Source: Desulfovibrio sp. TomC (GTDB lineage Bacteria > Desulfobacterota > Desulfovibrionia > Desulfovibrionales > Desulfovibrionaceae). From it: a stretch of 64,000 bases of DNA. A model generated the notes under the pieces. That model was not told where the DNA came from. It saw nothing but the letters and a program-made list of their open reading frames with translations, and ran no database searches. The first letter of the stretch is position 1. Every line of letters begins with the position of its first letter. A program made the position numbers and the translations under genes. Below are positions 41,948 through 45,148 of this stretch, in pieces. The stretch is from contig NZ_JSEH01000011.1 of NCBI RefSeq assembly GCF_000801335.2, positions 1 to 64,000 on the forward strand, read 5' to 3'.

Positions 41948-42130
41948 GCAAAGCCCCAGAGAGCCGTGTCGTCAGTTCTTTTGAACCTTGGCAACCAAGG
42001 CGGACGCCGCTGTTTGACCTTCAGGCCACCCGGTCGAAGCCGGGCACGCACACCAGCCACGCGTCGCGGCATCCAATTTTTGAGTATCGGCTCAAAAACA
42101 AACGAACGATCACGCACACCCCAGGGAACT
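41948..42130 (-). ncRNA. ssrS: 6S RNA
   Basis: Regulatory RNA that mimics an open promoter and binds sigma-70 RNA polymerase. On the minus strand the sequence keeps the diagnostic GAGCCGATA (42093-42085), as in E. coli 6S, a GUGGCUGGUGUGC stretch, an apical hairpin with arms CCCGG/CCGGG (42044-42029), a second hairpin CCTTGG-TTG-CCAAGG (42000-41986) and an ACGACAC 3' strand. The ends pair as GGUGUGCGU... with ...ACGACAC to close the rod. It sits directly between zapA and rny, the usual place after zapA. The ends are estimates from promoter and pairing. A 7-bp hairpin at 41906-41928 may be its terminator. Confidence 0.85.
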
Positions 42131-42689: not shown

Positions 42690-44051
42690 TCATTTTCGGG
42701 CTTTGGTCACCTGCCGGCCCCGGCCCAGGGCCAACATCCCGTCCGCTACATCGGAAGTAATCACGGAACCGGCCCCGACAAGGGCGTCGTTGCCGATGGT
42801 CACCGGCGCAACCAGGGCGGAGTTGGAACCGATGAAGGCCCGCTCGCCAATGACCGTCTGGTGCTTGTGCACTCCGTCGTAATTGCAGGTAATGGTGCCG
42901 GCTCCGATATTGGACCCGGCCCCGATCACGGCGTCGCCCAGATAGGTCAGATGATTGGCCTTGGCTCCGGGACCAAGCACGGATTTCTTCATCTCGACGA
43001 AATTGCCGACCCGCGCCCGTTCTTCCATGACCGCCCCCGGGCGCAGCCGGGCATAGGGGCCGACCTGGCAGCCGGCGTCCACCCGGGCCTTTTCCAGATG
43101 GCAAAAGGAATGGATCACGACGTCTTCGCCAACCTCGGCGTCAAGGAGCACGCCGTGGGAGGCCAGCGTCGCTCCGGCCTTGATGCGGGTTTCACCGGAG
43201 AGTTCCAACGGCCCGCACAGCTCCACGCCCGGGGCAATGGCGACCTCCGGACCGATGCGCACGCTGTCGGCCGCCCGCACCACCACCCCGGCGTCGATAT
43301 GGGCGTCGACAATGCGCCGGCGTAAAATTTCTTCGGCCCCGACCAGTTCCCGCGGGCTGTTGATGCCAAGATAGGCCTCGTCCGCCCCCCGGTTGACCGG
43401 CAGCACCCGCAGCCCGGCGGCCTGGGCCAGCCCGATCAGGTCGGTGATGTAGTATTCGCCGCTCTTGTTGTCGTTAGACAGCTCGGCCAGAAGCGGCGCG
43501 ACAACGGCCAGACGCACAAGGTAGACCCCGGCGTTGATTTCGCCCGTGGCCGGTCCGTGGAGCGCCGGGTCAAAATCCTTGGCCTCGACAATCCGTACCG
43601 CGTCCCCCTGGCGCACCACCCGGCCGTAGGCGGCAGGATCGGGCAGCTCGATGGAGACAAAGGCGACGTCGGCCTTGGCAGCCAGGGCGGCGTCACGAAA
43701 CCGTTGCAGACTCTCGGCCGTCACCAGCGGCGCATCGCCGTTGACCACCAGCACATGGTCAAGGCCGGCGGCGGCCAGAACCGGCAGGGCCGTGGCCAGG
43801 GCATGGCCGGTGCCGAGCTGTTCGGTCTGGCGCACGAAGCGGCCGGCCAGTTCCGGAAAGACGGCTTCCACGGACTCGGCCCGGTGGCCGACCACCGTAT
43901 AGACCGCTTGGCCGCACAAAATCGCCAGGGCCTGCTCGACATACCAGAGCATGGGTTTGCCAAGCAGGGTTTTGAGCACCTTGGGGGCGTCGCTTTTCAT
44001 ACGGGTGCCCTTGCCGGCGGCCAGGACCAATGCTCCGATACGCTGTGCCAT
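42690..44051 (-). CDS. glmU: Bifunctional GlmU (UDP-GlcNAc pyrophosphorylase/GlcN-1-P acetyltransferase)
   Basis: Makes UDP-N-acetylglucosamine in two steps for peptidoglycan and lipopolysaccharide. The 453 residues comprise an N-terminal uridyltransferase domain with LVLAAGKGTRMKS (residues 9-21), and a C-terminal left-handed beta-helix acetyltransferase with hexapeptide repeats (for example KANHLTYLGDAVIGAGSNIG and GAGTITCNYDG, which includes the catalytic region). Full length. It is co-oriented with atpC2 upstream (88 nt) and the ZapB-like gene downstream (44 nt). Confidence 0.97.
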   Translation of the reverse strand: MAQRIGALVLAAGKGTRMKSDAPKVLKTLLGKPMLWYVEQALAILCGQAVYTVVGHRAESVEAVFPELAGRFVRQTEQLGTGHALATALPVLAAAGLDHVLVVNGDAPLVTAESLQRFRDAALAAKADVAFVSIELPDPAAYGRVVRQGDAVRIVEAKDFDPALHGPATGEINAGVYLVRLAVVAPLLAELSNDNKSGEYYITDLIGLAQAAGLRVLPVNRGADEAYLGINSPRELVGAEEILRRRIVDAHIDAGVVVRAADSVRIGPEVAIAPGVELCGPLELSGETRIKAGATLASHGVLLDAEVGEDVVIHSFCHLEKARVDAGCQVGPYARLRPGAVMEERARVGNFVEMKKSVLGPGAKANHLTYLGDAVIGAGSNIGAGTITCNYDGVHKHQTVIGERAFIGSNSALVAPVTIGNDALVGAGSVITSDVADGMLALGRGRQVTKARK

Positions 44052-44139: not shown

Positions 44140-44580
44140 CTAGCGCCCGCCGGACGGGGCCGAGCCGGGCAACCGGGCCACCTGGTGCAGTTTCATACGG
44201 GCCATGGCCCGCTGCAGGGCCGCTTTGGCCCGGGTATAATCCACGGCCTCCTGCCGCTCGACCGCCAATCGGGCTTCGGCCCGATCCCTGGCTTTACGCG
44301 CCCGGTCCAAATCAATCTCTTCAGGCAGTTCAGCCGCTTCAGCCAAAATCAACACCTTTTCCGGCGACACATCGGCAAAGCCGCCGCTGACAAACACGTA
44401 CTCTGTTTTGCCGGCCACGCGGTAGCCAAACGATCCAATGCTCAGGGCGGTCAGAAAGGGAACGTGCAACGGCAGGGCGGTAAATTCGCCGGCCACGCCT
44501 GTGGCCGTGACCGATTCAACGGTCTTGGCCAGCACCAGCCGGTCCGGGGTGACAATCTCAAGGGCAAAGGTCCGGGCCAT
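44140..44580 (-). CDS. Second ATP synthase epsilon subunit (paralogue)
   Basis: A 146-residue protein that aligns along its length with the epsilon subunit encoded just upstream; both share LEIVTPD, the GGFADVS/GGFAEVS motif and a helical tail ([19 protein letters not shown]). Epsilon inhibits and couples F1. The Asp-x-x-Arg-Ala ATP-binding-like motif is kept, so the protein looks functional. AAGGA lies 8 nt before ATG 44580. A strong terminator separates it from atpC, so its expression would need its own promoter or read-through. Two epsilon genes in tandem are unusual; which one assembles with F1 cannot be told. Confidence 0.88.
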
Positions 44581-44667
44581 AGTGGATCCTTGGCAAAGGG
44601 TTTCACGGACTGCTTCCGGGGTGCTACCAGAAACACCCCGGGTCCGACAATGCAGACCAGGACGCAT

Positions 44668-44698
44668 AAAAAAAAGGCGGCTCCTTTCGGAGCCGCCT
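44668..44698 (-). terminator. Terminator between the two epsilon genes
   Basis: A perfect 10-bp GC-rich stem (44675-44684 with 44689-44698), tetraloop, and eight T residues on the minus strand (44675-44668). It is 25 nt after the atpC stop and is the expected end of the ATP synthase transcript. Confidence 0.9.
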
Positions 44699-44722
44699 GG
44701 GGTTCACATGTCCGAGGCGTGT

Positions 44723-45148
44723 TTAGTGCGTCGAAGCGGCAATGGTCCCGGCGTTTTCGCGCACGCGCATGCGGTAGAACGCACGCTGCATGGCGGCCTG
44801 GGCCCGGGCGAAGTCAACCTTGTCGCGTTCACGCTCGACGCGCTGTTTGGCCCGATCCTGGGCCTTGCGGGCGCGCTCGATGTCGATGTCCTCGGGGCGT
44901 TCGGCAACCTCGGCCAGAATGGTGACCTTGTTCCCGGACACTTCGGCAAACCCGCCGGCAATGAAGACGTAGTGCGCCTTCCCGTCGAGCTTGTACATCA
45001 GGCTGCCGATGCCAAGGGCCGACAGAAACGGGATGTGGTTTGCCATGATGCCGAATTCACCGAGCAGACCCGGAGCGCCCACGTAGTCAACATCCTGGGA
45101 CAAGACAAGCTTGTCCGGGGTGACGATTTCAAGGCGGAGTTGGGCCAT
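44723..45148 (-). CDS. atpC: ATP synthase F1 epsilon subunit
   Basis: A 141-residue subunit of the F1 stalk. The N-terminal beta-sandwich ([20 protein letters not shown]) and C-terminal helical hairpin ([19 protein letters not shown]) are complete. It acts as an inhibitor of ATP hydrolysis and part of the rotor. It is the last gene of the atp operon: 5 nt after atpD and closed by a strong terminator. A diverged paralogue lies just beyond the terminator. Confidence 0.95.

Follow-up and report, generated by a model that had tools for sequence, protein, structure and literature searches.

A second, diverged epsilon subunit gene between the atp operon and glmU in Solidesulfovibrio

The atp locus and its two epsilon genes

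The window analysed here is the whole stretch of 64,000 nucleotides at the start of contig NZ_JSEH01000011.1 of Desulfovibrio sp. TomC, a genome that is that of a Solidesulfovibrio. It holds an F1 operon on the minus strand, downstream of which come a second epsilon gene and glmU (Table 1). Both epsilon genes, eps1 and eps2, start with ATG and their products share 57% identity over 129 aa (BLAST). The curated cut-offs of PF02823, PF00401, TIGR01216 and NF009980 are cleared by the two proteins alike, and the scores of eps2 are 84.4 bits for the N-terminal beta-sandwich (PF02823, cut-off 27), 47.3 bits for the C-terminal helical domain (PF00401, cut-off 24.6) and 104 and 165.5 for the full-length equivalog models TIGR01216 and NF009980 (cut-offs 67.25 and 129, respectively). 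These results bear out the first-pass annotation of this DNA, which had described two tandem, diverged and complete epsilon genes. A PF02823 search of the whole 5.07-Mb genome (99.95% complete) returned eps1 and eps2 and no third epsilon.

Table 1. Coordinates of the features at the locus, numbered along the window
Feature	Position	Strand	Basis or remark
atpF', atpF, atpH, atpA, atpG, atpD, atpC, then eps2, then glmU		(-)	gene order in the window
eps1, canonical atpC (141 aa), last gene of the F1 operon	44723..45148	(-)	ORF, profile matches, position in e1 clade
Intrinsic terminator of the atp operon	44667..44698	(-)	10-bp stem at 44675-44698, then T run; folding, terminator call
Conserved promoter-like element before eps2	44621..44650	(-)	conservation across relatives
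Approximate RBS of eps2	44585..44592	(-)	AAGGA just 5' of the eps2 ATG
eps2, second, diverged epsilon gene (146 aa)	44140..44580	(-)	ORF, profiles, position in e2 clade, purifying selection, AlphaFold model
glmU, probably co-transcribed with eps2	42690..44051	(-)	88-nt spacer without intrinsic terminator

From a structural perspective, the AlphaFold model of eps2 (pLDDT 83, pTM 0.55) has the epsilon fold, with matches in the PDB to 2e5y, 8yh8 and 5hkk at E below 1e-8, the best fold match being the epsilon subunit in an integrative AbrB-AtpE model (9a4b). Further along the same strand, downstream of the glmU unit, a 6S RNA (RF00013, 89.5 bits) lies at 41949-42130 (-) and adjoins rny.

A probable transcription unit of eps2 and glmU

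The atp operon is closed after atpC, as the first-pass annotation had it, by a hairpin whose stem is perfect over 10 bp (AGGCGGCTCC/GGAGCCGCCT) and by eight T, one of which is paired in the stem. The 63-nt stretch with the hairpin folds at -30.7 kcal/mol versus -15.2 in shuffles (z -5.8) and is called as a terminator, which is kept in 16/16 tandem loci examined. Because the order in single-copy relatives is commonly atpC, terminator, glmU, this terminator is, on comparative grounds, the ordinary and ancestral end of the atp operon. The idea that it could be a special device set between two epsilon copies was rejected, since relatives with a single epsilon gene have it at the end of their atp operon as well. 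With the atp operon ending there, eps2 would head the glmU unit, having apparently been inserted between the atp terminator and glmU. The search for an RNA element or riboswitch in the region between eps1 and eps2 gave no Rfam match.

Upstream of eps2 lies an element composed of TTGTCG (44645-44650), an 18-nt spacer and the extended -10-like sequence CTGGTA (44625-44630), and across relatives it takes the form of TTGTCG or CTTTTG, 18 nt, and then an extended -10-like CTGNTA. The latter is found 38-50 nt upstream of the eps2 ATG in 14/14 Solidesulfovibrio, and its presence in 8/8 chosen lineages compares with a mean of 0.035 and a maximum of 2 over 2000 shuffles; the genomes of the related genus g41 have TGNTA alone, further upstream. 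It is by conservation alone that a promoter of eps2 is proposed and that the element is termed promoter-like: a consensus promoter scan made no call before eps2, and the -10 and -35 hexamers are weak. An inverted repeat (CCGGGGTG..CACCCCGG) surrounding the element in this window was set aside, as it is not conserved in relatives. The ribosome-binding site that had been assigned to the second gene is indeed present, with AAGGA just upstream of the start codon (CCAAGGATCCACT-ATG), and a purine-rich site precedes eps2 in nearly all relatives.

The spacer from eps2 to glmU measures 32-103 nt in 13/16 loci and mostly has no terminator, and thus eps2 probably heads the glmU transcript, in a transcription unit separate from the atp operon. 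In two pairs of genomes, G025/G133 (L196/L195) and G109/G160 (L088/L085), a strong conserved hairpin (CCGCCTCG..CGAGGCGG) with no T run stands directly before glmU, and the spacer of G109 and G160 has grown to ~190 nt, with an additional predicted stem structure. The codon adaptation index is 0.47 for eps2 versus 0.61 for eps1, a measure that is noisy on 141-146 codons and is weakly suggestive of a lower expression of eps2.

Distribution, origin and selection

The adjacent pair occurs throughout the Solidesulfovibrio genomes searched (14/14) and the members found of g41 (3/3), a genus of the same family; where relatives that share the pair are named, they are species of Solidesulfovibrio. No other adjacent epsilon pair was seen in the order (199 genomes at the level of the family, 297 at that of the order). 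Elsewhere in the family and order, few genomes have two epsilon matches, and the second copies that could be placed are unlinked (on another contig or far off), usually low-scoring and N-ATPase-like (the second match of G248, which was not listed, was left out of the placement). Unlinked low-scoring second epsilons of this kind are scattered over several genera (G016, G032, G036, G037, G048, G104, G178, G191, G197 and others) and, in other Desulfovibrionaceae, may belong to N-ATPase operons.

Besides the identity of the two proteins, the first-pass annotation had called for their phylogeny. In a tree of 84 epsilons, all eps1 sequences form one clade, e1 (99/95), and all eps2 sequences another, e2 (96/74). 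Among the outcomes that it had named as speaking against its claim are a second copy that is a pseudogene in relatives and a recent duplication with no divergence, and both of these are rejected: eps2 is intact across the relatives, with no pseudogene among the 17 genomes that have the pair, and the 57% BLAST identity and the separate clades indicate that the copies are old and diverged. As a side observation, the eps1 frame looks broken in one metagenome-assembled genome among the 14 Solidesulfovibrio, G160 (L085/L045, 39-447), where the break coincides with ambiguous bases and is probably an assembly artefact.

The best-supported origin, although not a proven one, is a single tandem duplication of atpC before the split of Solidesulfovibrio and g41, with both copies intact since. 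Two independent duplications, one in each genus, are not rejected by the AU test (p=0.14) and would suit the large differences between the N-terminal domains of the Solidesulfovibrio and g41 e2 proteins, the latter of which retain ancestral residues. However, 96% of the bootstrap trees contain the e2 clade, and the e2 genes of both genera occupy the same site before glmU and encode the same C-terminal segments ELPEEID and RAKAALQR, which makes two events distinctly improbable; the question concerns origin only and is compatible with any function.

A duplication of this kind has been known since 2014, when an in-locus duplication of ATPF1E was reported in Desulfovibrio magneticus and Desulfovibrio sp. 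FW1012B (Koumandou and Kossida, 2014; PMC4154653); the two epsilon genes sit side by side in the F1 locus there, and their duplication predates the divergence of those species. The adjacent pair described here is also seen in records titled Solidesulfovibrio magneticus and is very probably the outcome of the same event. The earlier remark that atpC duplications are uncommon is therefore fair, with the qualification that the one in this lineage was already published. The same study described ectopic epsilon duplications in Acidithiobacillus, Thiobacillus denitrificans and Mariprofundus with no function given, and assigned none to the in-locus duplication (PMC4154653); those bacteria likewise have a normal F1Fo and one epsilon gene more than it needs, but the additional gene is elsewhere in the genome. 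In the literature searched, neither a functional study nor, for Solidesulfovibrio, any expression literature was found. What is added to the 2014 report is the distribution across the genus and in g41, the layout of terminator and promoter-like element, the link to glmU, and the analyses of selection and of residues.

The eps2 gene evolves several times faster than eps1. Its NG86 dN/dS values are about 0.06-0.40, mostly 0.15-0.30, and those of most eps1 pairs are about 0.1; since the values are well below 1, eps2 is, by this estimate, under purifying selection. The faster evolution of e2 is also consistent with a partial relaxation. Mean identity in the N-terminal domain is 0.95 within eps1 and 0.69 within eps2, and in the C-terminal domain 0.87 and 0.70, respectively, so that the extra constraint usually placed on the N-terminal domain is, in these alignments, lowered in eps2.

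A single F1Fo and the possible role of eps2

A single gamma and a single c subunit came out of the genome search, which gave no further F/V-type catalytic subunit, two other PF00006 matches being read as FliI and Rho; one gamma is likewise found in 10/10 related genomes checked. The Fo genes (atpZ/I-like, atpB and atpE) stand in a separate cluster (G000:C9, ~27-29 kb, L207), and the N-terminus of the c subunit bears an extended hydrophobic stretch resembling a leader. With one gamma and one c subunit, one F1Fo would serve two epsilons, and each F1Fo complex has one epsilon site.

It had been suggested that the second epsilon might serve a different rotary complex, and this part of the first-pass annotation is not supported: a second such complex is very unlikely in the source genome, and the assignment of eps2 to one is extremely improbable. 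The unlinked low-scoring second epsilons of some Desulfovibrionaceae genera would suit an N-ATPase, but eps2 scores 29.2 bits with the N-ATPase epsilon model TIGR03166, far below its cut-off of 100.1, and is rejected as an N-ATPase epsilon also because no second gamma or c subunit accompanies it. The N-ATPase epsilon also provides a second epsilon homologue per genome, but within a whole second operon. The rest of that proposal, an isoform beyond the terminator, is retained: eps2 is real, conserved and diverged, and probably belongs to a separate unit with a promoter-like element.

In the epsilon subunit, the N-terminal domain docks onto gamma and the c-ring. The changes that are fixed in Solidesulfovibrio eps2 (G24>T, G33>T, E69>D and T76>L, plus Y22>S/A) all fall in this beta-sandwich. 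As for the residues considered for docking onto gamma and c, conservation is complete (14/14) for H38 and the following PFL segment and reaches 11/14 for E31, and G24, G33 and Y22 are changed. In a structure paper, the N-terminal domain is assigned to the coupling of the gamma-epsilon-c rotor and the C-terminal helices to regulation (PMC12796488). The ATP contacts known from the Bacillus PS3 and C. thermarum epsilons are E83, D89, R92, R99, R122/123 and R126/127 (PMC10010621). In PS3 numbering, E83, I88, D89, R92, A93, R99, R103, R115, R122 and R126 are invariant in 14/14 Solidesulfovibrio eps2, a set that includes the six ATP-sensing positions E83, D89, R92, R99, R122 and R126, and eps2 retains, as read from the alignment, the full set of ATP-contact residues of the C-terminal sensor helices. 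In its two-domain make-up and its ATP-binding residues eps2 is therefore the same as canonical epsilon (Bacillus PS3, 2E5Y; C. thermarum, 5HKK), from which it differs in being an extra gene that is probably not part of the atp transcript and in its fixed N-terminal-domain changes.

We consider, with a probability of roughly 0.5, that eps2 is a second, separately expressed epsilon isoform that competes with eps1 on the only F1Fo of the cell. Specifically, glmU and not the atp operon would be the expression partner of eps2, whose level would probably stay below that of eps1, and the two proteins would compete for the one epsilon site that gamma offers; the complexes that take up eps2 would differ in their coupling to the rotor foot and in the ATP threshold at which the hydrolysis brake acts. 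The net effect would be that ATP hydrolysis is tuned in certain states of growth or energy. A conserved and diverged isoform in a probably separate unit fits the conditional isoform suggested by the first-pass annotation, and eps2 may thus exert a conditional control of ATP hydrolysis. The stronger proposal of a switchable brake, where the separately transcribed eps2, expressed with the cell-wall precursor gene glmU, would swap into F1Fo conditionally and so shift both coupling and the hydrolysis threshold, is put forward tentatively and is rather doubtful.

Two other explanations have been weighed against the competing isoform. The faster evolution of e2 and the loss of the usual extra conservation in its N-terminal domain would also be expected of a redundant or dosage paralogue that fills the epsilon site with no distinct role and drifts under relaxed selection. 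This is unlikely, given that the 17 genomes hold no pseudogene, that dN/dS is well below 1, that the changes at G24, G33 and T76 are fixed rather than random while the ATP-site residues are invariant, and that the promoter-like element and the RBS are conserved. Alternatively, eps2 could be a free, moonlighting ATP-sensing protein whose changed N-terminal face binds a non-F1 partner, e.g., a regulator. The ATP-site residues are kept whereas the rotor-docking domain has changed, the fold match to 9a4b offers a precedent for an epsilon with a non-ATPase partner, and eps2 sits before glmU; the conservation of H38, the PFL segment and, mostly, E31 argues on the other side that docking onto gamma and c is probably not lost, and the moonlighting role appears quite unlikely.

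The in vivo regulatory role of epsilon is itself debated (PMC10010621), which counts against the competing isoform, and it is for this debate, on whether epsilon regulates ATP hydrolysis in living bacteria, that the pair is of interest. A natural experiment on this question is provided by a genus whose two epsilon isoforms both retain the ATP-sensor residues but differ in the rotor-docking domain, which has diverged in one of them. If true, the switchable brake would represent a case, in bacteria, of isoforms being exchanged in the central rotor.
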